A DNA stretch of 64,000 nucleotides, from contig WBOU01000018.1 of NCBI GenBank assembly GCA_009268125.1, positions 1 to 64,000 on the forward strand. Reading direction: 5' to 3'. Numbering within the stretch: the stretch's first letter is position 1; every line of letters starts with the position of its first letter. A program made the translations under genes and the position numbers. This DNA is from Chloroflexia bacterium SDU3-3. GTDB taxonomy: Bacteria; Chloroflexota; Chloroflexia; Chloroflexales; Roseiflexaceae. The notes beneath the pieces are model-generated. The model saw only the letters and a program-made list of their open reading frames with translations, was not told where the DNA came from and did not search any database. This document shows positions 24,195 to 36,953 of this stretch, in pieces.

Positions 24195-25196
24195 CTACGA
24201 GAGCTTGACCAGCTGCTTGCCCAGGTTCTTGCCCTTCAGCATGCCGATAAAGGCGCTTGGCGCGTTGCGAATGCCCTCGGCAACCGTTTCGTCATAGGCG
24301 ATCTCGCCACTGGCGACGGCCTTAGCTAGCTCGGCCAGCGCCGTGGGCCAGCGATCGAGGTGGTCGCCCACGATGAAGCCCTGCAGCTTGACGCGCTGGC
24401 TGAGCAGCCTGCGCATACCGCGGAAGCCTCGCGGGTCGGCCTCGTTGTACTGCGAGATCATGCCGCAGAATGGGATGCGGGCAAATACGTTCAGGTGCTC
24501 CAGCACGGCATCCAGCACGTCGCCGCCCACATTTTCAAAGTAGACATCGATGCCGTTTGGCACCGCCGCAGCCAGCGCCTCGCGGAAGTTCTCGGCCTTG
24601 TAATCAACGCACGCGTCGAAGCCTAGCCGCTCGACCACATAGGCGCACTTCTCGGCCCCGCCGGCGATGCCCACCGCGCGCGCGCCGTGGCGCTTGGCCA
24701 GCTGCCCCACCACGCTGCCCACCGCGCCCGCCGCCGCCGAGACCACCACGGTCTCGCCGGGTTTGGGCTGGCCGATGTCGAACAGGCCCACATAGGCGGT
24801 CACTCCCGGCATTCCCACCACGCCCAGGTAGGCCGAGGGTGGCACGATCGTGGGGTCGACAATCCGCAGGCCCTGGCCGTTGCTCACGGCGTAGAGCTGC
24901 CAGCCGAGGTTGCCCACCACCGTTGCGCCGGTGGGGAAAGCCGGGTTATTAGATTCGACCACCTGGCCCACGGTGCCGCCCACCATCACCTGGCCGAGCG
25001 CCACGCTGGCGGCGTAGGATTTTGCCTCGCTCATGCGCCCGCGCATGTAGGGGTCAAGCGAGAGATATTGATTTTTAACCAGCACCTCGCCCGCGCCGGA
25101 GGAGGGGATGGCGGTCTCGACAATCGAGAAGTCTTCTTCTTGAACCCAGCCCTGGGGGCGTCGGGCGAGAAGCACCTGGATGTTTGTGTCGCTCAT
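24195..25196 (-). CDS. NADP-dependent MDR reductase (CurA/leukotriene-B4-dehydrogenase-like)
   Basis: 333 aa medium-chain reductase without structural or catalytic zinc cysteines. NQYLSLDPYMRGRMSEAKSY is the PTGR/CurA-family substrate-side motif, and VVVSAAAGAVGSVVGQLAKRHGARAVGIAGGAEKC is the NADPH-binding fold, with the PTGR-like VDVYFENVGGDVLDAVL after it. These enzymes reduce the C=C bond of alpha,beta-unsaturated carbonyls. ATG 25196 (MSDTNIQVLL) is preferred to a TTG further up because GAAAG precedes it and family N-termini align there. It reads in the same direction as the Rrf2 and reductase genes but upstream of the Rrf2 operator, so it has its own promoter. Confidence 0.88.
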   Translation of the reverse strand: MSDTNIQVLLARRPQGWVQEEDFSIVETAIPSSGAGEVLVKNQYLSLDPYMRGRMSEAKSYAASVALGQVMVGGTVGQVVESNNPAFPTGATVVGNLGWQLYAVSNGQGLRIVDPTIVPPSAYLGVVGMPGVTAYVGLFDIGQPKPGETVVVSAAAGAVGSVVGQLAKRHGARAVGIAGGAEKCAYVVERLGFDACVDYKAENFREALAAAVPNGIDVYFENVGGDVLDAVLEHLNVFARIPFCGMISQYNEADPRGFRGMRRLLSQRVKLQGFIVGDHLDRWPTALAELAKAVASGEIAYDETVAEGIRNAPSAFIGMLKGKNLGKQLVKLS

Positions 25197-25246
25197 ACGA
25201 AAACTTTCATACAAATCAGCGGTCGCTGTGCCGAGGATCGGCGTTC

Positions 25247-25263
25247 GGTAGTATAACACTACC
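25247..25263. promoter_or_regulatory. Inverted repeat GGTAGT-N5-ACTACC
   Basis: A 6-bp perfect inverted repeat with a five-base centre, 50 bases upstream of the MDR reductase start. Its size suits a MarR/HxlR/TetR-type operator. The half-sites face the opposite way from the TACC...GGTA sites of the TetR at 12.6 kb, so a different regulator is likely. Confidence 0.45.
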
Positions 25264-25473: not shown

Positions 25474-25574
25474 AAGACCCACAGCAAACAACATTTACGC
25501 AATATGTCCACAGCAGGACATGGGGTTTGTCGGTTCGCATAGCGCGGCTATTTTCATGTAACACGGTGGCGTGT

Positions 25575-27119
25575 ATGATGTCGCTGACGACAGCACAACG
25601 AGATCTTCTGCACCATATGCTGAATATGGATGCGCCGGTTGGGGCATCCGCCCTTGGGCAGCAGCTTCACCTAACCCCCCGGCAGGTGCAGTATGGCCTT
25701 CGCGAGGTCAAGAGCTGGCTGGTCCAGCGCCAGACCGAGGTGCGCCATGTGCCCGGTGTCGGCATTCAGATCCTCTGCACCCCCGAGCAGCGCCAGCACC
25801 TGCTGCGCGAGCTTTCCTCGCAGTCCCGCTTCCAGCTCATTCTCACGCCCGATCAGCGCCAGCAGCTGCTAGCCCTGGTGCTGCTGCTGGCCAACGAGCC
25901 GCGCACCCTAGGCCAGCTTCAGAACGATTTCGAGATCGCCCGCGTGACGGTGCTGAAAGATCTGGATGCGGCGACGGTCTGGCTCAACTCGTTTGGCCTC
26001 ACGGTTGCGCGGCGGCAGCACCGTGGCTGCTGGGTGGCCGGCAGCGAGCTGGCCCGCCGTCAGGCGCTGGCCGCGCTGCTGTGGGGCGATGTGCCGCACG
26101 CCCAGCCCTTGCTGGCCACCACCCACCGCCAGGGCCTGGTGTTCGCGCTGGCCCAAGATGCCGCGCTGCTGCCCATCTTAAGCGATCTGCAGCGCCAGCT
26201 GGGCAGCTGGGATCTGCCTTCCGCCGAGGCCACGGTGGCCACGATGGAGCGCGAGCTTGGCGGGCGCTTCACCGACGAGTCGGCCTTGCAGCTGGCCCTC
26301 CATATTGCCACGCAGGCCCGGCGCGTGCGCCAGCAGCACTATGTGGCGATCGCGCCCGAGGCGCTGGGCTGGCTGCGCAGCCTGCCGATCTGGCCGCTGT
26401 CCAGCCGCGAGGGCATGCGGCTGTGGCCCGATCTGCCGCCCCATGTGGCCGAGGCCGAGACCGCCGCGCTGGCCCTGCAGGTGCTGGCCAGCGTGCGCGA
26501 TGAGCCGTGGCGCAAGCTGGGCCAGCAGTCGGGCCTGGTGGCCGACATGCTCGCGCAGTTCATGGCCGACATTGGCCGGGCCTACAGCGCCCCCGAGTTG
26601 GCCGACGACCAGCTGCTGCGCGATGGCCTTGAGGCCCACATCCTGCCGGCCTGCGTGCGCCAGCGCTTTGGGCTGTGGGGCACCGCCCGTGCCACCGGCG
26701 AGATTCAGACCGAGCGCTACGCCTTCGAGCGCGGCGTGGCGGCCCGCATCGCCGCCCAGATCGCCGCCGAGACCGGGGTGGCGCTGCCGCCCTCGGCCCA
26801 CGACGACCTGGTGCTGCTGCTGCGTGCCGCGATCGTGCGCGCCCGCCCCGAGCGAGCGCGCCACGTGTTGGTGGTCTGCCCCAGCGGCATGGCCACCACG
26901 CAGCTGCTGGTGGCGCGGCTCAAGGCCCGCTTCCCGCGCTTCGGTACCTTCGAGGTGCTCTCCATCCGCGAGCTGAATGCCGAGCGCGTCATCGGCGCCG
27001 ATCTGATCATCACCACCGTGCCGCTGCCGATCGCGGGCGAGCTGCCGGTGGAAGTTCTTCATGTTCACCCAATGCTAAGCCCCGAGGATATCACCGCGCT
27101 GATGCAGTGGATGGCCTAA
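25575..27119 (+). CDS. MtlR/BglG-type PTS-regulated transcriptional activator
   Basis: 514 aa. Two N-terminal HTH units (~5-60 TTAQRDLLHHML...GASALGQQLHLTPRQVQYGLRE, and ~100-150 EPRTLGQLQNDFEIARVTVLKDL) are followed by PRD-like helical regions (~170-390; candidate phosphorylatable His in LALHIATQ and EAHILPACVRQRFG) and an EIIB-Gat-like domain (~420-500) with VCPSGMATTQLL, the Cys loop. The C-terminal EIIA domain of classical MtlR is absent. Such proteins activate PTS operons according to phosphorylation by HPr and EII components. First gene of the operon, consistent with autoregulation. Two ATGs lie at 25575 and 25578; the longer form from 25527 adds residues unlike the family. Confidence 0.82.
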   Translation: MMSLTTAQRDLLHHMLNMDAPVGASALGQQLHLTPRQVQYGLREVKSWLVQRQTEVRHVPGVGIQILCTPEQRQHLLRELSSQSRFQLILTPDQRQQLLALVLLLANEPRTLGQLQNDFEIARVTVLKDLDAATVWLNSFGLTVARRQHRGCWVAGSELARRQALAALLWGDVPHAQPLLATTHRQGLVFALAQDAALLPILSDLQRQLGSWDLPSAEATVATMERELGGRFTDESALQLALHIATQARRVRQQHYVAIAPEALGWLRSLPIWPLSSREGMRLWPDLPPHVAEAETAALALQVLASVRDEPWRKLGQQSGLVADMLAQFMADIGRAYSAPELADDQLLRDGLEAHILPACVRQRFGLWGTARATGEIQTERYAFERGVAARIAAQIAAETGVALPPSAHDDLVLLLRAAIVRARPERARHVLVVCPSGMATTQLLVARLKARFPRFGTFEVLSIRELNAERVIGADLIITTVPLPIAGELPVEVLHVHPMLSPEDITALMQWMA

Positions 27120-27205: not shown

Positions 27206-28276
27206 ATGCGTCAGCACATCCAGCGCTTCGGGAGCTTCCTGGCTGGGATGGTCGTGCCGAATATCGGCGCATTCATTGCCTGGGGACTGATTACCGCACT
27301 CTTCATCCCTTCGGGCTGGCGGCCCAACGAGACATTTGCCAAGCTGGTTGATCCCATGATCCTCTATTTGCTGCCGATCCTGATCGGCTACACCGGCGGC
27401 AAGCTGGTCTACGATCAGCGCGGCGGCGTGGTTGGCGCGGCTGCCACCATGGGCGTGATCGTGGGCGCGAGCATCCCCATGTTCATCGGCGCGATGATTA
27501 TGGGCCCGCTCGGCGGCTTCCTGATGAAGAAGATCGATGAGTTCCTTGAGGATAAGACTCCCGTCGGCTTCGAGCTGCTGTTCAACAACTTCTCGGCTGG
27601 CTTCCTGATCATGGGCCTGGTGCTGCTGGCGAATGTGCTGATCGGCCCGGCGGTGCAGACGGCCAGCGTGGCCCTAGGCGGCGTGGTGCAGTTCCTGATC
27701 GACTCGCGCCTGCTGCCGATCGCCGATATCATCATCGAGCCAGCCAAGGTGCTGTTCCTGAACAACGCCATCAACCACGGCATCCTTGGCCCACTGGGCG
27801 TGGCCGAGGTGAAGGAGCACGGCAAGGCCATCCACTTCCTGCTGGAGACCAACCCTGGCCCTGGCCTGGGCCTGCTGCTGGCCTACTGGTTCGCTGGTAA
27901 GGGCGACCTGAAGCTCTCGGCCCCGGGCGCGGCCATCATCCACTTCCTGGGCGGCATCCACGAGATCTACTTCCCCTACATCCTGGCGCACCCGATCATG
28001 ATCGTGGCGATGTGGGTGGGCGGCATCTTGGCCGACCTGTGGTTCGTGGTCACTGGCGCTGGCCTGGTGGCCACCCCGGCCCCTGGCTCGATCATCGCCT
28101 ACCTGGCGGTCATCCCGCTCGGCTCGCACATCCCGGTGCTGGGCGGCGTGCTGATCGGCGCGGTTGGCTCGTTCATCGCTGGCTCGGCCATCCTGCGCTT
28201 CTTCCCGGCCCGCACCACCGACGAAGTCGACGAGCCTGAGGCCGATGTGGCCCCGGCGGCGGTGCCTGCCGACTAG
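27206..28276 (+). CDS. mtlA: Mannitol/hexitol-type PTS EIIC permease
   Basis: 356 aa, a stand-alone EIIC domain with about eight hydrophobic segments. FGSFLAGMVVPNIGAFIAWGLITALF at the start, NNAINHGILGPLG and FLGGIHEIYFPYIL are the signature stretches of MtlA-type EIIC (the last includes the GxHE-like sugar-phosphorylation motif). The sequence ends in an acidic/alanine-rich tail without an EIIB domain; EIIB and EIIA are separate downstream genes. It moves and phosphorylates a hexitol, mannitol by family resemblance, but sorbitol or galactitol cannot be excluded. AAAGGAGA lies 8 bases before ATG 27206. The frame is open far upstream through the regulator gene, but only as an overlap shadow. 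Confidence 0.88.
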   Translation: MRQHIQRFGSFLAGMVVPNIGAFIAWGLITALFIPSGWRPNETFAKLVDPMILYLLPILIGYTGGKLVYDQRGGVVGAAATMGVIVGASIPMFIGAMIMGPLGGFLMKKIDEFLEDKTPVGFELLFNNFSAGFLIMGLVLLANVLIGPAVQTASVALGGVVQFLIDSRLLPIADIIIEPAKVLFLNNAINHGILGPLGVAEVKEHGKAIHFLLETNPGPGLGLLLAYWFAGKGDLKLSAPGAAIIHFLGGIHEIYFPYILAHPIMIVAMWVGGILADLWFVVTGAGLVATPAPGSIIAYLAVIPLGSHIPVLGGVLIGAVGSFIAGSAILRFFPARTTDEVDEPEADVAPAAVPAD

Positions 28277-28316: not shown

Positions 28317-28407
28317 GCCGTCGTTCTTTTGAAAATGCCCCGCGCTCTGCGCAGAAGATATGATTAAACCTCTAGCCTGTATTGGTTATTGAAAGGAGAT
28401 GGCAGCT

Positions 28408-28731
28408 ATGGCAGCCTCGATTCCTGTAGCAGATATTGACACGATCGTGTTTGCGTGCGAGGCCGGTATCGGCTCCAGCATCATGGGCGTGAATGCCTTT
28501 AAGCGCAAGCTGAAGCAGGCCAATCTGAGCATCACGGTGGTGCACAAGCCAGTGCGCTCGGTGTCGGCGGATGCCAAGGTGGTGATCGCCCACAAGGGCC
28601 TGGCCGAGTTCGCCCGCAAGCAGGCTCCGAACGCGGTGGTGATCGCCTTCTCGCAGTTTATTAACGACCCCGTGTTCGATCGTGTGATCAACGAGCTGAA
28701 GGCGGGCGACGCTGTGACGGAGGCACGCTAG
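28408..28731 (+). CDS. Mannitol-type PTS EIIB
   Basis: 107 aa stand-alone EIIB. The phosphocysteine loop is VFACEAGIGSSIMGVNAFKRKLK (Cys ~16), matching the MtlA EIIB pattern ACDAGMGSSAMGA. The rest (VVIAHKGLAEFARKQAPNAVVIAFSQFIND) is also the MtlA type. It carries phosphate from EIIA to the sugar on EIIC. ATG 28408 is chosen over 28399 because AAAGGAG sits directly against the latter but nine bases from the former. Two bases separate its stop from the EIIA start. Confidence 0.88.
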   Translation: MAASIPVADIDTIVFACEAGIGSSIMGVNAFKRKLKQANLSITVVHKPVRSVSADAKVVIAHKGLAEFARKQAPNAVVIAFSQFINDPVFDRVINELKAGDAVTEAR

Positions 28732-28733
28732 CC

Positions 28734-29177
28734 ATGGCAATCGTATCTGTTGACCGCGTGAAGGTTCAGGCCAGTGCATCCGACAAGCTGGATGCTATCC
28801 GCCAGGCGGGCGAGCTGCTGGTGAGGGGTGGCTGCGCCCAGCCCGCCTATGTCGATGGCATGCTCGCCCGCGAGCAGACCATGTCCACCTACATTGGCAA
28901 CGGCGTGGCCATCCCCCATGGCCAGTTCGAGAACCGCGCCGATGTGCTGGCCACCGGCGTGTCGGTGGTGCAGTTCCCCGAGGGCGTGGAGTGGGAGCCG
29001 GGCGAGCGCGCCTACCTGGTGATCGGGATCGCCGCCGACGCCGAGGAGCACCTGGGCGTGCTGGCCAACCTGGCCGAGGTGATCGAAGACCCCGAGGCCG
29101 CCGAGCAGCTGGCGCGGCTGGCCGACCCCTCGCAGATCGTGGCCTGCCTGAGCCGAGAACGTGTGGAAGAGGCATAG
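28734..29177 (+). CDS. Mannitol/fructose-type PTS EIIA
   Basis: 147 aa, the usual EIIA-Mtl/Fru length. Active-site histidine is in GNGVAIPHGQFE (TYIGNGVAIPHG); DKLDAIRQAGELLVRGGCAQPAYVDGMLARE is the conserved N-terminal part. It receives phosphate from HPr (in this operon as the N-terminal domain of the next gene product) and passes it to EIIB. Starts two bases after the EIIB stop, so translation is coupled. Confidence 0.9.
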   Translation: MAIVSVDRVKVQASASDKLDAIRQAGELLVRGGCAQPAYVDGMLAREQTMSTYIGNGVAIPHGQFENRADVLATGVSVVQFPEGVEWEPGERAYLVIGIAADAEEHLGVLANLAEVIEDPEAAEQLARLADPSQIVACLSRERVEEA

Positions 29178-29214
29178 CGGGCGCGCTGGTGCGGTGTCCT
29201 AAAGGAATGTGGTT

Positions 29215-31227
29215 ATGCAGCAGCTTGAATTGGTGATCCATAATGCGACCGGCCTCCACGCTCGCCCAGCGCGGATGTTTGTGGATATTGCCAAGCGCTA
29301 TCAGTCATCGATCCAGATCCAGCACGGCCAGAAGCGGGTGAATGCGAAGAGCCTGATCGCCGTGCTGACGCTGGGCGTGGCCCATGGGCAGCATATCTGT
29401 ATCGACATAAGCGGTGAAGACGAGGTTGTGGCGGCAGCGGCGCTTTCGGCTGCTGTGAACGAGGGCCTTGGTGAAGGCCCTCAGCACGCCCCCGCCGCCC
29501 CTGCCCCAGCCCCGGCGGCGCCGCCTGCCGCCGCGCCCAGCAGCGCCAACCAGCTGCGCGGCGTGGCGGGCGCGCCCGGCATCGCGATCGGGCCGGTGTT
29601 CCGCATCGAGCGGGCCTCGCTGGCCGTCGGCGAGGTGTTCGGCGGGGTCGAGCAGGAGTGCGATAAGCTCAACGCGGCGCTGGCCTCCGCCCGCCAGCAG
29701 CTGTTCGCCCTGCGCGAGCAGGTGCTGCTGCGCGGCGCTGCCGAGGAGGCCGCGATCTTCGATGTGCACAGCGAGATCTTGGCCGATGCCGATCTGCTGG
29801 CCGCCGTGCGCGGCGCGATCGCCGATGGCGTGGCCTGCGCAGCCGCCTGGCAGTCGGCCATCGCCGCCCAGGCCAAGGGCCTTGAGGCGCTTTCCAACGC
29901 GGTGCTGGCCGCCCGCGCCGCCGACCTGCGCGATGTGGGCGACCGCGTGCTGCGGCTGCTCATCGGTGCCGATCAGCCGGTGCCCCAGCTGCCCGACCAC
30001 CCCGTGATCGTGGTGGCCTACGACCTCTCGCCATCCGAGACGGCCTCGCTCGATCCCAGCCGCGTGCTGGGCTTCTGCACCGCTGTCGGCGGCCCCAATG
30101 CCCACACGGCCATCCTAGCGCGGGCGCTCGGCCTGCCCGCTGTGGTGAGCGCTGGCCCGGCGGTGCTGGATGTTCCCATCGGCACACCGGTCATCCTCGA
30201 CGGCGGCGCAGGCACGCTCCAGCTGGGGCCGGGCGAGGCCGACCTGGCCACGGCCCGCGCCGCCCAGCGCGAGCAGCAGGCCCGCCGCGCCGCCGCCGCC
30301 GCCGCCGCGCAGAGCGCCGCCATCACCACCGACGGCCACCGCGTCGAGGTTGCGGCCAATATTGGCGGCATCGACGAGGCCCGCCAGGTGCGCCAGAGCG
30401 GTGCCGAGGGCGTGGGCCTGCTGCGCACCGAGTTCCTGTTCCTCGACCGCTCCAGCGCGCCCACCGAGGAGGAGCAGCTGTCCATCTACCAGCAGATCGG
30501 CCAGGAGCTGGGCGACCTGCCGGTGATTATCCGCACGCTCGACATCGGCGGCGACAAGCCGCTGCCCTACCTGGCGCTGCCTGCCGAGCAAAACCCCTTC
30601 CTGGGCGAGCGCGGCATCCGCCTCTGTCTTGCCCACCCCGACCTGCTCCGTCAGCAGCTGCGCGCCATCCTGCGCGCCTCGGCCTCGCATCGGCTGCGGA
30701 TCATGTTCCCCATGATCGCCGACATGGCCGAGCTGCGCGCCGCCCGCGCGCTTCTGGATGAGCTGCGGCTTGAGCTACATGTCCCGCCGGTCGAGGTCGG
30801 CATCATGGTCGAGGTGCCCTCGGCGGCGCTGATGGCCGACCTGTTTGCCCAGGATGTCGACTTCTTCTCGATCGGCACCAACGACCTAACCCAGTACACA
30901 CTGGCGATGGACCGCACGCACCCCAACCTCGCCACCAAGGCCGATGGCCTGCACCCCGCCGTGCTCCGCCTGATCGCGCGCACCGCCGATGCGGCCCACG
31001 CCGCTGGCAAATGGGTGGGCGTCTGCGGCGAGCTTGCCGCCGACCCGGCTGCGGTCCCCATCCTCGTGGGCCTGGGCGTCGACGAGCTGAGCATCAGTGT
31101 GCCCGCCATCCCCTCGGTAAAAGCTCAGATCCGCACCCTCAGCCTGGCCGAATGCCAGGAGCGCGCGCGCGGGGCGCTGGTATGCGCCACCGCCAAGCAG
31201 GTGCGCGAAGGAGAGATACAGCGATGA
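29215..31227 (+). CDS. ptsI: HPr-Enzyme I fusion (phosphoenolpyruvate-protein phosphotransferase)
   Basis: 670 aa. Residues 1-87 are a full HPr: with ATG 29215 the phosphohistidine falls at His15 (GLHARPA) and the regulatory serine at Ser46 (VNAKSLIAV), the textbook numbering, which supports this start (AAAGGA eight bases upstream). An Ala/Pro linker (~90-115) leads to Enzyme I: the phosphohistidine loop GGPNAHTAILARALGLPAVV, and the PEP-binding barrel with LLRTEFLFLDR, DFFSIGTNDLTQYTLAMDR and the active-site Cys in VCGELAADP. It autophosphorylates with PEP and feeds EIIA. Enzyme I and HPr as one protein inside a sugar operon, rather than a separate ptsHI, makes this cluster self-sufficient. 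Overlaps the next gene by ATGA. Confidence 0.92.
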   Translation: MQQLELVIHNATGLHARPARMFVDIAKRYQSSIQIQHGQKRVNAKSLIAVLTLGVAHGQHICIDISGEDEVVAAAALSAAVNEGLGEGPQHAPAAPAPAPAAPPAAAPSSANQLRGVAGAPGIAIGPVFRIERASLAVGEVFGGVEQECDKLNAALASARQQLFALREQVLLRGAAEEAAIFDVHSEILADADLLAAVRGAIADGVACAAAWQSAIAAQAKGLEALSNAVLAARAADLRDVGDRVLRLLIGADQPVPQLPDHPVIVVAYDLSPSETASLDPSRVLGFCTAVGGPNAHTAILARALGLPAVVSAGPAVLDVPIGTPVILDGGAGTLQLGPGEADLATARAAQREQQARRAAAAAAAQSAAITTDGHRVEVAANIGGIDEARQVRQSGAEGVGLLRTEFLFLDRSSAPTEEEQLSIYQQIGQELGDLPVIIRTLDIGGDKPLPYLALPAEQNPFLGERGIRLCLAHPDLLRQQLRAILRASASHRLRIMFPMIADMAELRAARALLDELRLELHVPPVEVGIMVEVPSAALMADLFAQDVDFFSIGTNDLTQYTLAMDRTHPNLATKADGLHPAVLRLIARTADAAHAAGKWVGVCGELAADPAAVPILVGLGVDELSISVPAIPSVKAQIRTLSLAECQERARGALVCATAKQVREGEIQR

Positions 31228-32957
31228 AAACGCGAATTGAGACCTATACGTCGTCCCAGGCACCGATTGCAAAACAGACCTGGGCGTGGAATATGTATGG
31301 CGCAGGCGTCGAGCAGATCGGCCGCGAGGGCCAGCCCGAGCTGTTCGCGGTGCCCGAGCCGAGCGATGATCAGCTGCTGGTGCGCGTCGATGCCGTTGGG
31401 ATGTGTTTCTCGGATGTAAAGCTCATCCAGCAGGGCGGGAAGCACCCCAAGCTCTACAACCGCGATCTGTCGGTCGAGCCGACCCGCCTCGGCCACGAGG
31501 CCGCGCTCACCGTGCTGAAGGTCGGCAAGAATCTACAGGGTCAGTATCATGCTGGCCAGCGCCTAGCTATGCAGCCCGACATCTACCAGAACGGGCGCAG
31601 CACTGCCTACGGCTACACCATTCCCGGCGGGCTTATCCAGTTCCACCTGATCGGGCCAGAGGTGCTGCACGCCGACGATGGCGCCTACGTGCTGCCGATC
31701 TCCGAGCAGATGGGCTATGCCGAGACTGCGCTGACCGAGCCGTGGGCCTGCGTCGAGGGCGCGTACACCCAGCGCCGACGCCTCGCCCCCAAGGCGGGTG
31801 GGGTGATGTGGATCGTTGGGCAGCCTGGTGATGCCACCCAGTATAGCTTCTCGCAGCATCTGGATGCACCGGCGACGATCGTCCTTTCCGATGTGCCTGC
31901 CAGCCTGCGCGCCCAGATCGAGCGCGCCACTAGCGCCACGGTGGTGCTGCGCGATGGCCAGACCCGCGAGGGTTACGCCGCGCTCAGCGCCGAGCTGACC
32001 AGCGGCCAGGGCTTCGATGACATCGTGCTGCTGGCCCCGCGCAGTGCCGAGGATGTTTCCGCCGCCGCCCGCCTGATCGCCCGGCGTGGCACCTTCAACA
32101 TCGTAGGCAGCGAGCCGCTTGATGGCCTGCCCAATATCGACGTGGGCCGCATTCACTACGACTATACCGCCTATGTCGGCACGCGCGGCCCCGATATCGC
32201 GGCGGCCTATGGCGAGGCCCGCAACCGCTGCGAACTGCGCCAGGGCGGCGTGGCGCTGTTTGTGGGCGCTGGCGGCCCCATGGGCCAGATGCACGTGCAG
32301 CGTGCGATCGAGCTGGCCGACGGCCCGCGCACCGTGATCGCCACCGATGTGAACGATGGCCGATTGGCCGCGCTGGAGCGCCTGTTCCAGCAGCTCGCCG
32401 CCGACCACGGCAAGCGCTTCGTGGTCGCCAACCCCACCACAGCGTCGCTGGCCGAGCTGGTGCGGCGCGAGACCAACGGTGCGGGTGCCGATGACGTGGT
32501 GGTGAGCGTGCCCTCGGCTGGCCTGATGGCCGAGGCGGCCACCTATATGGCCAAGGACGGTATGCTGGTGCTGTTTGCTGGCGTGCCCAACGGCTCGATG
32601 GCCCCGCTCGATCTCAGCGCGGTCTATCTGAGCAATGCCCAGTTCACCGGCACATCTGGCTCGCGCCTCAGCGATCAGGAACTGGTGATTCAGAAGACGA
32701 TCGAGGGCGCACTATCGCCAAATCGTTCAGTCGCCGCAGTCGGCGGTATGAACGTGGCCCGCGAAGGCATCGCCGCGATGATGGAGGGCCGCTACGCTGG
32801 CAAGGTCGTGATCTTCCCGCAGATCCCGGATCTGCCGCTGCTAGCGCTCAGCGAGCTGAAGGCCCACTACCCCGCCGTGGCCGCCAAGCTGGCCCCTGGC
32901 AATGTCTGGACAAAAGAGGCCGAGCAGGCGCTGATCGAAGAGCTGTGGCGCGCATGA
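31224..32957 (+). CDS. Zinc-type MDR dehydrogenase with two Rossmann-like segments (SorE-like; putative hexitol-phosphate dehydrogenase)
   Basis: 577 aa, much longer than the usual 340-410 aa MDR. The N-terminal catalytic domain has Cys61 (VGMCFSDVKL) and His91-Glu92 (LGHEA), zinc ligands in ADH order, and resembles L-sorbose-1-phosphate reductase (SorE). Two nucleotide-binding-like units follow. The first (~190-325) starts GGVMWIVGQPGDATQ and lacks a clean GxGxxG; the second (~340-485) starts GGVALFVGAGGPMGQMHVQ, an intact motif. Their later parts run in parallel (FDDIVLLAPRSAEDVSAAARLIARRGTF against ADDVVVSVPSAGLMAEAATYMAKDGML), suggesting an internal duplication with one degenerate copy. 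In this operon it should oxidise the hexitol phosphate made by the PTS to a ketose phosphate, in place of MtlD. Coupled to both neighbours by ATGA overlaps. Confidence 0.78.
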   Translation: MKTRIETYTSSQAPIAKQTWAWNMYGAGVEQIGREGQPELFAVPEPSDDQLLVRVDAVGMCFSDVKLIQQGGKHPKLYNRDLSVEPTRLGHEAALTVLKVGKNLQGQYHAGQRLAMQPDIYQNGRSTAYGYTIPGGLIQFHLIGPEVLHADDGAYVLPISEQMGYAETALTEPWACVEGAYTQRRRLAPKAGGVMWIVGQPGDATQYSFSQHLDAPATIVLSDVPASLRAQIERATSATVVLRDGQTREGYAALSAELTSGQGFDDIVLLAPRSAEDVSAAARLIARRGTFNIVGSEPLDGLPNIDVGRIHYDYTAYVGTRGPDIAAAYGEARNRCELRQGGVALFVGAGGPMGQMHVQRAIELADGPRTVIATDVNDGRLAALERLFQQLAADHGKRFVVANPTTASLAELVRRETNGAGADDVVVSVPSAGLMAEAATYMAKDGMLVLFAGVPNGSMAPLDLSAVYLSNAQFTGTSGSRLSDQELVIQKTIEGALSPNRSVAAVGGMNVAREGIAAMMEGRYAGKVVIFPQIPDLPLLALSELKAHYPAVAAKLAPGNVWTKEAEQALIEELWRA

Positions 32958-33874
32958 TCTACACTCTCACGCTCAACCCCGCCCTTGACCGCGAGCTGAT
33001 GGTGCCAGCGCTTGACCTCGATCAGGTGCTGCGCGCCACCGCCACCCAGGTCGACTTCGGCGGCAAAGGCTTTAATGTCTCGCGCATGCTGATCGCGCTC
33101 GGATCGCAGAGCGTGGCGCTCGGCTTTGCTGGCGGCCACACCGGCCAACAGCTGCGCCAGGGCCTCGCGGCGCTGGAGATTGCGACCGACTTTATCGCGA
33201 TCGGGGGCGAGACCCGCACCAACATCAGCGTGGTTTCATCCGACCACACGCGGTCGCTCAAGGTAAACGAGCCAGGCCCCACGATTAGCCCTGCCGAGCA
33301 GACCTTGCTGCTCAATCAGGTGCGGCGTCTTGCACGCGCGGGCGATTGGTGGGTGCTGGCGGGCAGCCTGCCCCCCGGCCTCCCCGCTACTATGTACGCC
33401 GACCTGATCACCCTGCTGCACCAGGCCGGGGCCAACACGGTGCTCGATACCAGTGGCGAGGCGCTGCGCCACGGCTGCGCGGCCCACCCCACCCTGATCA
33501 AGCCCAACGCCGAGGAGGTCGGCCAGCTGCTTGGCCGCCGCATCCACACCCACGCCGATGCGCTGTCCGCCGCCGCCGCCTTCGCGGGCATCCCCTACGT
33601 CGTCATCTCGCTTGGGGCCGAGGGCGCGGTGCTCTCCCACCAGGGGCGCGGCTGGTTTGCCGCATCGCCCAAGGTGCAGGCGCGCAGCCCGATCGGCGCG
33701 GGCGACTCGCTGGTGGCCGGCCTGACATGGGGCCTCAGCCAAGGCGACATCCTGCAGGGCCTGCGCTGGGGCGTGGCCTGCGGCGCGGCTACGGCGGCCT
33801 GCCCTGGCACCGCCCTTGGCACCGCCCAGCAGGTGGCCGACCTCGCCCCCCAGGTGATCATCCGCGAGCTATAG
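32954..33874 (+). CDS. PfkB-family sugar-phosphate kinase (1-phosphofructokinase/tagatose-6-phosphate kinase type)
   Basis: 306 aa. It begins MIYTLTLNPALDRELMVPAL, the FruK/LacC-type N-terminus, followed by DFGGKGFNVSRMLIALG (PfkB signature 1) and ends with ARSPIGAGDSLVAGLTWGL (signature 2, catalytic Asp in GAGDS). It phosphorylates a ketose phosphate to the bisphosphate. With mannitol or sorbitol as PTS substrate the preceding dehydrogenase would give fructose-6-P; with galactitol, tagatose-6-P; sequence alone does not choose. ATG 32954 overlaps the stop of the dehydrogenase gene (ATGA); an in-frame GTG nine bases upstream is less likely. Last gene of the operon, followed by a hairpin. Confidence 0.85.
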   Translation: MIYTLTLNPALDRELMVPALDLDQVLRATATQVDFGGKGFNVSRMLIALGSQSVALGFAGGHTGQQLRQGLAALEIATDFIAIGGETRTNISVVSSDHTRSLKVNEPGPTISPAEQTLLLNQVRRLARAGDWWVLAGSLPPGLPATMYADLITLLHQAGANTVLDTSGEALRHGCAAHPTLIKPNAEEVGQLLGRRIHTHADALSAAAAFAGIPYVVISLGAEGAVLSHQGRGWFAASPKVQARSPIGAGDSLVAGLTWGLSQGDILQGLRWGVACGAATAACPGTALGTAQQVADLAPQVIIREL

Positions 33875-34342: not shown

Positions 34343-34714
34343 ATGGCAACACGTCAAGAGCAGCTCATTGCCGTCCTTGAGCGGTTGGCGCAGAACGCGG
34401 GCACCGATGTCACTGGTGCGGTGGTCGTCAGCACCGATGGTATTGTCCTCGCCTCCAAGATGGCGAGCGACGTCAATGCCGATCGTGTCGGCGCGGTGGC
34501 CGCCACCATGATCGGTGTGACTAAGCGCGTCTCGGGCGAGCTAAAGATCGGCACCACCGAGGAGACCATCATCAAGGCCGACAGCGGGCTGTTCATGGTG
34601 CTGCCCGCTGGCGAGCAGAGCCTGCTGGCGGTCAACCTCCGCCAGGGTGCCAATCTGGGCATGGTCCGCATCGAGGCTCGCGATTCCGCTGCTGTGATTG
34701 CACGTATTCTTTAA
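34343..34714 (+). CDS. Roadblock/LC7 domain protein (MglB/CvnB-like), second copy
   Basis: 123 aa, same length as the copy at 2146-2517 and about 82% identical by hand count; the differences cluster at the N-terminal helix and the last ten residues. GGGGAAAGG precedes the ATG. The next genes on the same strand encode a protoglobin, a PATAN protein and a Ras-like GTPase, the usual Roadblock partner, so this copy probably acts as activator or scaffold for the GTPase and links it to the globin sensor. The near identity of the central surface in both copies suggests they bind the same GTPase. Confidence 0.92.
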   Translation: MATRQEQLIAVLERLAQNAGTDVTGAVVVSTDGIVLASKMASDVNADRVGAVAATMIGVTKRVSGELKIGTTEETIIKADSGLFMVLPAGEQSLLAVNLRQGANLGMVRIEARDSAAVIARIL

Positions 34715-34750
34715 ATTACGCCTACCAGCAACCGCAAAAGGAGTGCTCAC

Positions 34751-35302
34751 GTGACATCTTCCCGTGCAAGTTGGCAGATCAAAGGCCCGGCCATCCTCCA
34801 GGAGCTGATCGCGCTCATGGGGGTCTCCCCCGAAGACTCGGCGCTGCTACGCACGCTCTACCCCGCCGCCCAGGCCCAGGCTCCCAAAATGACCGAAGCA
34901 TTCTATGCTCGGCTCTTCAAGCACGAGAACACCGCAGAATACCTGCAGGGCGCGTCGATGGAGCGCCTGCACTCTATGGTCGGCCAATGGTTCACCGAGA
35001 TCTTCAGCGGCACCTATGACAACGACTACGTGCAAAAACGCCTTACTATCGGCCAGATCCATGTGCGTATCGGCCTGCCTGTGCGCTATCCGCTGGCCAT
35101 GCTCGATGTGGTGATGCCGTTTGGCGAAGAGGTCGCGCTCACCAGCGCCGATCCGCAGCGGGCCGTGCAGGCGTTCCGCAAGGTGCTGGCCCTAGATGTT
35201 GCGATTTTCAACCAGGCCTACGAGGATAACCAGCTTGAGCATCTGTCGGGGCTTGTTGGCGGCGAGCGCCTTGCCCGCCTGCTGCTCTCCGGTGGGGGCT
35301 AG
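34751..35302 (+). CDS. Single-domain protoglobin (globin-coupled-sensor-type heme protein)
   Basis: 183 aa, a stand-alone protoglobin domain. The heme region is KRLTIGQIHVRIGLPVRYPLAML, where His104 fits the proximal histidine of globin-coupled sensors such as HemAT; distal-side residues are in FYARLF...YLQGASMERLHSMVGQWFTEIF. No output domain (no MCP or GGDEF) is attached, so the signal must go to a partner protein. It begins at GTG 34751 with AAAAGGAG upstream, 36 bases after the Roadblock stop, which makes co-transcription with the Roadblock gene likely. It could sense O2, NO or CO and report to the Roadblock/GTPase pair; that is inference from gene order. Confidence 0.85.
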   Translation: MTSSRASWQIKGPAILQELIALMGVSPEDSALLRTLYPAAQAQAPKMTEAFYARLFKHENTAEYLQGASMERLHSMVGQWFTEIFSGTYDNDYVQKRLTIGQIHVRIGLPVRYPLAMLDVVMPFGEEVALTSADPQRAVQAFRKVLALDVAIFNQAYEDNQLEHLSGLVGGERLARLLLSGGG

Positions 35303-35330
35303 GCCGTTGGCCCCAAGGCACTGGCGCGCT

Positions 35331-35363
35331 TGGCTATCGATGGGCGTCACCCATCGATAGCCA
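35331..35363 (+). terminator. Hairpin after the protoglobin gene
   Basis: TGGCTATCGATGGG pairs perfectly with CCCATCGATAGCCA around a five-base loop, 29 bases after the stop. There is no T run. Confidence 0.6.
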
Positions 35364-35586
35364 CCACGAGTGGCCAGATAGCGCTTTGTTGCTGATTCTT
35401 GCTCTTGGGCGCGAATTGCACTACCCTGTGTATGGGCGCGGTAATCGTCATATAAAAGTAATGAATTAGATCATCTCCCCCGCCTCCATATGTGACAATA
35501 TAGAGATATCGTAATTCGATGAGGTCTGTAACCGCGCAAGGCTGGGGAGCTGGGGGCGCAGCTCCCAAGAAAAATGCCCTCCCACT

Positions 35587-35615
35587 TTTATTGATTGAGA
35601 TAGTCTTGCTATAAA
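35587..35615 (+). promoter_or_regulatory. Possible promoter for the PATAN-GTPase pair
   Basis: TTTATT (weak -35), 17-base spacer, TATAAA (good -10), about 28 bases upstream of the PATAN gene start. Confidence 0.35.
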
Positions 35616-35642
35616 CCAGGGTTGTTGGGAGAGGAGAACCCT

Positions 35643-36377
35643 ATGGCGCTCGAAGGTAGTCTTTTTGATATGTCGCTCTCAGATCTGTTCCAGATCTTTC
35701 GTAGCGGCCCAAAATCTGGTGTGCTTATTCTGTCGCGCGCCCCTGAGCGTGGTGTTGTCTATGTCTTCCAGGGGAAACTGATAGATGCGGTGCTTGTGAG
35801 CGGTGCCGAGAATCATGTGGACTCATCGGGCGAGGATGCGGTGCTCCAGATGCTCCACTGGGACGACGCCTCATTCGTTTTCCGCCACGATCTGAGCGTT
35901 GCCGAACGCCCCGTGCGCATCCTCCACGACTCCGAGTGGCTGGTGATGGAGGCGATGCGCCGGGGCGAGACGCCCGCGCTGCTGCCCGCCTACGAGAAGA
36001 TCACGCTCGACTCGCGCCTAGAGCTAGCCTCCATGCCTACCAACGCCGAGAGCGGGGTCAACCTCGACCTCAACCAGTGGCGCGTGCTCAGCCAGATAGC
36101 TATCTGCGATACCCTCAGCGAGATCTGCGCCCGCACTGGCCTCACCCCCGATGAGGGCATCCGCCTTGTGGGCCAGCTTGTTGCGATCGGCCTGGTCGAG
36201 ATAGCACCGCCCAAGGTGGCCATTCCGGTTCCAAAACCAACGGTCTCGCGCCAGCGCCTCTCCGACCTTGTTGCCCCGCAGGCTCAGTCGCTGGCCCCAG
36301 CCTATGCTGGCGCGGCCTCTGGTTCGTCGGGCCGGGGTCTGCTGGGGGCCATTATGCGTCGTGTTCGTGGTTTGTAG
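35643..36377 (+). CDS. PATAN (DUF4388) domain protein
   Basis: 244 aa. Residues ~1-120 fit the DUF4388/PATAN domain: MALEGSLFDMSLSDLFQIFRSGPKSGVLILSR followed by VYVFQGKLIDAVL and AVLQMLHWDDASFVFRHD. PATAN domains occur in response regulators and with GTPase systems and are thought to be protein-interaction modules. A winged-helix-like segment (~145-200, WRVLSQIAICDTLSEICARTGLTPDEGIRLVGQLVAIGLVEI) follows, then a low-complexity basic tail. AGAGGAG lies seven bases before ATG 35643. Nine bases separate it from the GTPase gene, so it is probably the GTPase's effector or adaptor. Confidence 0.83.
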   Translation: MALEGSLFDMSLSDLFQIFRSGPKSGVLILSRAPERGVVYVFQGKLIDAVLVSGAENHVDSSGEDAVLQMLHWDDASFVFRHDLSVAERPVRILHDSEWLVMEAMRRGETPALLPAYEKITLDSRLELASMPTNAESGVNLDLNQWRVLSQIAICDTLSEICARTGLTPDEGIRLVGQLVAIGLVEIAPPKVAIPVPKPTVSRQRLSDLVAPQAQSLAPAYAGAASGSSGRGLLGAIMRRVRGL

Positions 36378-36386
36378 GAGAATGCA

Positions 36387-36953
36387 ATGGCGCAGCCAAT
36401 CAAGATCGTCATCACTGGGGCCTACTCTGCAGGTAAGACAAGCTTTATCCGCGCCATCAGTGAGATCGACCCCCTGACGACAGAGTATGAAGTTACCGAC
36501 CCTGATGAGCGCCTGCTGAAACGGGAGACAACCGTCGCCCTCGACTTCGGCACCATCGCGATCAACGATCAGGCGACGCTCTATCTGTTTGGTACCCCAG
36601 GGCAGGAGCGCTTTGATTTTATGTGGGAGACGCTGAGCGAGGGCTGCATTGGCTATGTGGTGATGGTGGACAGCTGCCGCCCCGCCCATCTGAACGAGAC
36701 CGTTCGGCTGATCGCGCGCTTCGCCCAGATCACCGATGTGCCGTTTGTGGTGGCGGCCAACAAGCAGGATGACCCCACCGCGCTGCCGCTGCCCTACATC
36801 CGCCGTCGGCTCCAGCTGCCCAGCGAGGTTCCGCTGCTGCCCTGCATCGCCAACCAGCGCGAGAGCGTGAAGGATGTGCTGCTCAACCTGCTGGCCCATA
36901 TCGAGCATGTGGCGCTCTCGAATGAGAGCGAGGCCTTGCCCGGCGATCGATGA
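36387..36953 (+). CDS. Ras-like small GTPase of the conservon (CvnD)/MglA group
   Basis: 188 aa. G1 GAYSAGKTSF (11-20), a switch I Thr in KRETTVALDFG, G3-like LYLFGTPGQERFDFMW, where the usual DxxG is replaced by GTPGQ as in CvnD proteins, and G4 NKQD (AANKQDDP). ISEIDPLTTE and GYVVMVDSCRP are also diagnostic of the CvnD type. In actinomycete conservons the partners are a histidine kinase, a Roadblock protein and DUF742; here the Roadblock is present and protoglobin and PATAN take the other places. TAGGAG lies before the ATG. It is likely the switch that both Roadblock proteins control. The downstream process (motility, envelope or transcription) is unknown. Confidence 0.9.
   Translation: MAQPIKIVITGAYSAGKTSFIRAISEIDPLTTEYEVTDPDERLLKRETTVALDFGTIAINDQATLYLFGTPGQERFDFMWETLSEGCIGYVVMVDSCRPAHLNETVRLIARFAQITDVPFVVAANKQDDPTALPLPYIRRRLQLPSEVPLLPCIANQRESVKDVLLNLLAHIEHVALSNESEALPGDR

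Follow-up and report, generated by a model that had tools for sequence, protein, structure and literature searches.

A SorE-type zinc dehydrogenase with tandem coenzyme domains in a mannitol-type phosphotransferase operon of Chloroflexia bacterium SDU3-3, and a proposed route from mannitol-1-phosphate through fructose-1-phosphate

The gene described here lies on contig WBOU01000018.1 of Chloroflexia bacterium SDU3-3 (assembly GCA_009268125.1), within an analysed stretch of 64,000 nucleotides (the window; positions 1 to 64,000 of the forward strand). It is an intact open reading frame (ORF) on the plus strand (31224..32957), which encodes a protein of 577 amino acids. The gene order in this phosphotransferase system (PTS) operon is regulator, mannitol-type EIIC, EIIB, EIIA, HPr-enzyme I, dehydrogenase and 1-phosphofructokinase (1-PFK). 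Both junctions of the dehydrogenase gene are ATGA overlaps, with the stop codon of the HPr-enzyme I gene upstream and with the start codon of the 1-PFK gene downstream; judged from these overlaps, it is translationally coupled to enzyme I and 1-PFK. By its sequence, the product is a zinc-containing dehydrogenase of the medium-chain dehydrogenase/reductase (MDR) superfamily related to SorE and YggP, with two coenzyme domains in tandem, and is proposed to be a mannitol-1-phosphate dehydrogenase.

Two Pfam domains were matched above their cutoffs, ADH_N (PF08240, residues 48-127) and ADH_zinc_N (PF00107, residues 352-482), and both were also found in 56 of 56 family members. The whole protein aligned to MDR chains with a VIA-align Z of 28. 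Its N-terminal, GroES-like catalytic domain comprises residues 1-186 (31224..31781; ADH_N and structural model), and the C-terminal part of the catalytic domain comprises residues 488-577 (32685..32954; SorE alignment and model). An earlier note on this DNA had recognised a catalytic domain like that of zinc alcohol dehydrogenases (ADH) with Cys61 and His91-Glu92. These residues are indeed present (C61, 31404..31406; H91-E92, 31494..31499) and, like E172 of an EP motif (31737..31739), invariant in all of the 100 homologs from several phyla over which residue conservation was counted. E172 we take to be the fourth residue of the zinc site, as in the sorbitol dehydrogenase family. Between the two parts of the catalytic domain lie copy 1 of the coenzyme (Rossmann) domain, which is degenerate (residues 188-328, 31785..32207), and the intact copy 2 (residues 336-487, 32229..32684). 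The former was delimited by the SorE alignment, the comparison of hidden Markov models (HMM-HMM), structural models and comparison with the PDB, the latter by ADH_zinc_N, the model and the HMM-HMM comparison. According to the homolog alignment, copy 2 possesses a dinucleotide-binding loop GAGGPMG (residues 348-354, 32265..32285), whose G348, G351 and G354 are invariant, and a GTSG motif (residues 476-479, 32649..32660), which is common to SorE and YggP. Copy 1 contains the motif D306-x-G308-R309-x-H311-Y312 (32139..32159), conserved as D.[GSA]R.HY in 100 of 100 homologs, which is proposed to supply dimer-partner residues in cis.

The duplication became apparent when SorE was aligned to the protein. 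It matched twice in a self-overlapping manner (E 4e-27 and 1e-18 for the two pieces), SorE 2-312 corresponding to residues 17-322 and SorE 166-401 to residues 330-571. YggP likewise matched twice (YggP 12-316 to residues 34-322; YggP 167-416 to residues 333-574), and the same double overlapping match to YggP was seen in most of the long relatives that were checked, whose identity went as low as 35%. Copy 1 and copy 2, compared as HMMs built from 30 homologs, gave a score of 125 (E 3e-21, 141 columns), whereas 100 column-shuffled controls reached at most 19 and the reversed profile 15. The two nucleotide-binding-like segments with parallel motifs described in the earlier note are thus real repeats, and its remark that the first lacks a clean GxGxxG while the second has GAGGPMG is borne out by the sequence. 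AlphaFold models were of high confidence for the whole protein (mean predicted local distance difference test, pLDDT, 93.5; predicted template modelling score, pTM, 0.91) and for copy 1 alone (pLDDT 94.2, pTM 0.90). In the model each strand and helix of one copy has its counterpart in the other, except that copy 1 lacks the helix after the first strand (helix A) together with the glycine loop; a loop (residues 199-217) occupies the place expected for the dinucleotide-binding GxGxxG helix. The matches of the copy 1 model in the PDB were MDR chains with Foldseek, and with VIA-align the top 50 rows were all MDR coenzyme domains (Z 10-12; best row Z 11.8, root-mean-square deviation 3.4 A over 126 residues). 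The comparison of both halves, which the earlier note had proposed as a check, thus predicts an MDR-type Rossmann fold for the first segment. The sequence profile of copy 1 itself found no MDR match among PDB sequences at E values up to 1, so that copy 1 is recognisable only via SorE and YggP or via its fold.

These results confirm that the enzyme arose by tandem duplication of the coenzyme domain within an otherwise ordinary SorE-type enzyme. According to the models, copy 1 is predicted to be an MDR-type Rossmann domain in which the element for nucleotide binding has been lost. The HMM-HMM comparison with its shuffled controls, the copy 1 model and the PDB comparison rule out that copy 1 is some other known fold or resembles a Rossmann domain by chance. 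The same length and architecture recur in about 100 loci, which speaks against a sequencing artefact and against a fusion unique to this genome.

A scan of 84,980 genomes yielded 268 relatives, of which the best 80, all with at least 54% identity, were kept. These 80 belong to Chloroflexota, Desulfobacterota, Gammaproteobacteria, Alphaproteobacteria, Acidimicrobiia, Holophagaceae and others; divergent members with 35-43% identity occur in Chloroflexota and on a Deinococcus plasmid. The usual length in this long family is about 575 amino acids. Hence the earlier note was right in setting 577 amino acids apart from the 340-410 expected, although this length is normal for a widespread family and no oddity of this gene; it is standard only for a family of which no characterised member, and no assay of any member, was found in the open-access literature. 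MDRs with tandem Rossmann domains were not encountered in the open-access literature either, and neither was an earlier description of the long enzyme, although both may have been described elsewhere. In a tree of the domain copies all copy 1 sequences formed one group (support 99/98), which indicates, at the level of sequence, a single old origin of copy 1; the point of duplication relative to the single-copy relatives is without firm support in this tree. Divergent long homologs (L099-L101, L102-L104, L111) retain the copy 1 motif D-x-G/S-R-x-H-Y. Some of the divergent long homologs adjoin genes for short-chain dehydrogenases/reductases, class II aldolases, FGGY kinases or isomerase-like proteins, and these neighbours suggest other sugar substrates. 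One Chloroflexota genome (G187) encodes, beside a long homolog, a single-domain relative of 441 amino acids (L122, 5904-7226) with HY and GSSGG together, possibly a guide to the state before the duplication.

None of the curated NCBI equivalogs scored near its cutoff with the 577-amino-acid protein. The scyllo-inosose 3-dehydrogenase IolM (NF041097) reached 64 bits against a cutoff of 450 and the galactitol-1-phosphate 5-dehydrogenase GatD (NF007642) 12 bits against 550; Tdh and other curated MDR equivalogs were also far below their cutoffs. With SorE, which belongs to the polyol dehydrogenase group of MDRs, the long enzyme shares the catalytic domain, the zinc-site motifs, the motif at the end of the coenzyme domain (HY...GTSG), the location in a PTS operon and, as proposed here, the pair of hexitol phosphate and ketose-1-phosphate; SorE differs in its length of about 407 amino acids, its one coenzyme domain, its mannose-family PTS and its role as a reductase of L-sorbose-1-phosphate. 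YggP, a zinc-binding dehydrogenase encoded in cmtAB-yggP-yggF of E. coli, belongs to the same subgroup and adjoins a mannitol-type PTS (CmtA, CmtB), but has 425 amino acids and one coenzyme domain, and its neighbour is a class II fructose-bisphosphatase instead of a 1-PFK. The 577-amino-acid enzyme is related to the SorE/YggP group over the whole chain and breaks with its layout of one coenzyme domain in about 400-425 amino acids; it is therefore not a canonical SorE. By sequence it is a variant of the SorE-type MDRs and stands outside the MtlD family. YggP (L112, 5968-7245) with its cryptic CmtAB PTS is the single-domain counterpart of the long enzyme, and its substrate may be a related polyol phosphate. 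The open-access literature yielded no paper on the function of YggP and nothing relevant on YggP and CmtA, though a description may exist elsewhere.

The genes around the dehydrogenase, all on the plus strand, point to mannitol. The putative regulator (25527..27119, start codon uncertain) is of the MtlR type with PRD and PTS EIIB-like domains, judged by weak Pfam matches; 32 of 63 testable loci have such a gene upstream. The EIIC of the mannitol (MtlA) type (27206..28276) obtained 459.9 bits with TIGR00851, slightly below the cutoff of 468.4, which is exceeded by the EIICs from other such operons. It is followed by EIIB (28399..28731; PF02302, NF011663), EIIA of the mannitol/fructose type (28734..29177; PF00359) and the HPr-enzyme I fusion of 672 amino acids (29209..31227; PF00381, TIGR01417), which starts at 29209 (GTG) or 29215 (ATG). 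The 1-PFK (32954..33874) scored 315.5 bits with TIGR03828; its cutoff of 292 bits was also passed by ten of ten orthologous neighbours tested from different phyla. Genes for EIIC, EIIB and EIIA together were present in 58 of the 63 homologous loci with enough upstream sequence, and a 1-PFK followed within 500 nucleotides in 58 of the 71 loci with enough downstream sequence. The MtlA-type PTS operon is thus conserved across phyla. In the Desulfobacterota loci and in several of those from Gammaproteobacteria, EIIA, HPr and enzyme I form one chain, and EIIB is fused with EIIC. The fusions of HPr and enzyme I mean that these PTS operons bring their own general PTS proteins.

In the operon the dehydrogenase takes the position of MtlD and, by inference, acts on the same substrate, but MtlD belongs to the PF01232/PF08125 family, is no MDR, contains no zinc and forms fructose-6-phosphate. 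Neither of these two Mannitol_dh domains was matched in the 577-amino-acid protein, and the entire SDU3-3 genome encodes no Mannitol_dh (MtlD-type) protein; such a protein was also absent from 12 of 18 other carriers tested. The assumption that the dehydrogenase replaces MtlD in a hexitol operon fits these findings well. Phenotypes of carriers point in the same direction. Among four Motilimonas genomes M. cestriensis (locus L041) is the sole carrier of the long enzyme, with MtlA and without MtlD. A second genome has MtlA followed, about 1.6 kb on, by a Mannitol_dh_C ORF of 411 amino acids, resembling a classical mtlA-mtlD pair; the remaining two possess neither the long enzyme nor such a pair. 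M. cestriensis forms acid from D-mannitol and oxidises it, while M. eburnea and M. pumila are negative (PMC8375427). Herpetosiphon aurantiacus, H. geysericola and H. giganteus, which have the operon and lack MtlD, use mannitol (PMC6210107). In the Desulfosediminicola genus group the enzyme is encoded by D. flagellatus and Desulfopila aestuarii and absent from two other genomes; Desulfopila aestuarii, whose genome encodes a Mannitol_dh_C protein as well, uses mannitol as electron donor, and D. ganghwensis tests mannitol-negative (PMC8497536). The MtlA-type operon, the absence of MtlD and these phenotypes make mannitol-1-phosphate the best-supported substrate, and by operon context and phenotype this assignment is well supported.

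It is quite improbable that the PTS has a broad or different specificity and the enzyme acts on another polyol phosphate (glucitol-6-phosphate to L-sorbose-1-phosphate, galactitol-1-phosphate or an arabitol phosphate). L-Sorbose-1-phosphate would be an unlikely feed for 1-PFK and aldolase. Such a substrate would accord with the glucitol-6-phosphate/L-sorbose-1-phosphate pair of SorE and with the EIIC of the window being slightly below the mannitol cutoff, but the orthologous EIICs exceed it. M. cestriensis oxidises sorbitol as well as mannitol, but sorbitol is also oxidised by M. pumila, which is mannitol-negative; moreover, M. cestriensis forms no acid from xylitol, and none of the three Motilimonas species forms acid from sorbitol, dulcitol, arabitol, L-sorbose or tagatose (PMC8375427).

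As to the product, the configuration of the substrate is instructive. D-mannitol is two-fold symmetric, and the phosphate-proximal half of mannitol-1-phosphate has the configuration of glucitol-6-phosphate. Because of this shared configuration, SorE chemistry on mannitol-1-phosphate would yield D-fructose-1-phosphate. SorE itself interconverts L-sorbose-1-phosphate and D-glucitol-6-phosphate, i.e. it acts at the carbon next to the phosphate (PMC12817954). By analogy, we infer that mannitol-1-phosphate formed by the MtlA-type PTS would be oxidised by the 577-amino-acid dehydrogenase at the phosphate-adjacent carbon, as by SorE in reverse, to fructose-1-phosphate, which the co-translated 1-PFK would convert to fructose-1,6-bisphosphate, so that MtlD and 6-phosphofructokinase are bypassed. 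The same genome contains a separate fructose PTS cluster on another contig (L125, C4:178000-193000) with an EIIA-HPr-EI fusion, EIIBC and its own 1-PFK; the 1-PFK of the operon is therefore not explained by fructose uptake. A possible transposase-type ORF lies near the fructose cluster.

An enzyme replacing MtlD could also keep its product, if oxidation occurred far from the phosphate and gave fructose-6-phosphate, with 1-PFK serving fructose or another step. Known mannitol-1-phosphate dehydrogenases do give fructose-6-phosphate, and no 1-PFK adjoins the dehydrogenase gene in Herpetosiphon, M. cestriensis and Photobacterium rosenbergii. The loci without an adjacent kinase nevertheless have a strong 1-PFK elsewhere, as found in the Herpetosiphon genome, and in most loci, from several phyla, the dehydrogenase gene is followed by a 1-PFK that passes the equivalog cutoff. 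Considering further that 1-PFK is co-translated here in spite of the second one in the fructose cluster, and that the closest relative to have been characterised, SorE, works on the carbon adjoining the phosphate, fructose-6-phosphate is an unlikely product. A mannitol and sorbitol pathway of Haloarcula hispanica (PMC11519228) also proceeds via fructose-1-phosphate and 1-PFK to fructose-1,6-bisphosphate, but there uptake is by an ATP-binding cassette (ABC) transporter and free mannitol is oxidised and then phosphorylated by ketohexokinase, without a PTS or mannitol-1-phosphate. Oxidation of mannitol-1-phosphate to fructose-1-phosphate was not found in the open-access literature, although it may be described elsewhere, and we know of no description of a mannitol route from mannitol-1-phosphate through fructose-1-phosphate.

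Copy 1 is probably more than a relic, since a relic would drift, whereas D306, R309, H311 and Y312, and likewise D266, do not vary in any of the 100 homologs and are thus as strictly conserved as the zinc-site residues. The coenzyme domain of the single-copy SorE and YggP ends with both HY and GTSGG. The two motifs are divided between the copies of the long enzymes, HY being retained and GTSG lost in copy 1, and GTSG retained and HY lost in copy 2. The simplest explanation of these complementary losses is that copy 1 takes the position of a dimer partner and supplies partner residues in cis. In horse liver ADH, Met306 and Leu309 reach the substrate pocket of the partner subunit. Copy 1, copy 2 and horse liver ADH share a conserved glycine (G319, G476 and Gly316, respectively; the chain numbering of the horse enzyme was checked), and gap-free anchoring on it places R309 at Met306 and Y312 at Leu309. 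Both horse residues contact the substrate (PMC4028059; Leu309 also PMC9527765). Horse liver ADH and other MDR dimers resemble the long enzyme in their fold and in the dimer-interface segment which ends the coenzyme domain; they consist of two chains with one coenzyme domain each, whereas the long enzyme has two in one chain, one of them disabled. The top covarying pairs were V307-A460 in the interface segment and I305 with S480 and A175 at the flanks of the active site, a weak signal from 66 effective sequences with clade structure. Copy 1 would accordingly be a cis-acting dimer partner in a single-chain pseudo-dimer: having lost coenzyme binding, it would lend its Arg-x-His-Tyr to the single active site, while copy 2 would bind NAD(P) and work with the catalytic domain, and the HY equivalents of copy 2 would face nothing and decay.

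Alternatively, copy 1 might serve as a regulatory site that binds a ligand, or as an inert spacer which alters only oligomerisation; this is possible but not favoured. Evolution has often put Rossmann-like folds to new use in ligand binding or at interfaces, and the loop replacing helix A holds G199 (95 of 100) and D203 (88 of 100). In an inert spacer, however, the four motif residues would not remain invariant, and the conserved residues lie in the MDR dimer-interface segment, away from the old nucleotide cleft. Among the three roles raised in the earlier note, the regulatory nucleotide site appears least probable, given that neither the phosphate-binding loop nor the helix is left in the models; the conservation agrees best with a structural or partner role, the altered oligomer belonging to the less favoured alternative.

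Taken together, the best explanation is a once-duplicated SorE-type MDR with copy 1 as partner, which converts mannitol-1-phosphate to fructose-1-phosphate for onward conversion to fructose-1,6-bisphosphate; its probability is estimated at roughly 50%. Several observations weigh against it. Beside the missing adjacent kinase in P. rosenbergii and M. cestriensis and the lack of a characterised family member, the divergent members and the Deinococcus member stand outside PTS operons. Herpetosiphon llansteffanense carries the operon and is yet mannitol-negative (PMC6210107), and mannitol, from which D. flagellatus forms acid, does not serve this species as an electron donor (PMC8497536). Finally, SorE carries Asp, not Arg, at the position of R309, which makes the Arg a feature of the long family and not an ancestral partner residue.

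Textbooks know one route of PTS-dependent mannitol catabolism, which runs through MtlD and fructose-6-phosphate, and 6-phosphofructokinase is the usual control point. The idea of a new mannitol pathway into glycolysis via fructose-1-phosphate, run by a single-chain pseudo-dimer MDR with a dead coenzyme domain supplying partner residues in cis, is put forward tentatively. If true, a second mannitol route would exist in Chloroflexota, sulfate reducers and marine Gammaproteobacteria, which bypasses this control point, and pathway prediction would change for the many genomes whose copy of the gene is labelled just 'alcohol dehydrogenase'. The long enzyme is also a clear example from nature of tandem domains that have degenerated in complementary fashion, and hence a testable model of how a dimer interface may become internalised in one chain.

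Two further observations concern the surroundings of the operon. A second MDR of 354 amino acids, which looks zinc-less from its sequence, is encoded nearby on the minus strand (24195..25259). Downstream, at 34343-36953, a possible roadblock/LC7-like protein, a globin-like protein and a small GTPase were recognised together by eye, an arrangement which resembles a cluster of the MglA/MglB type.

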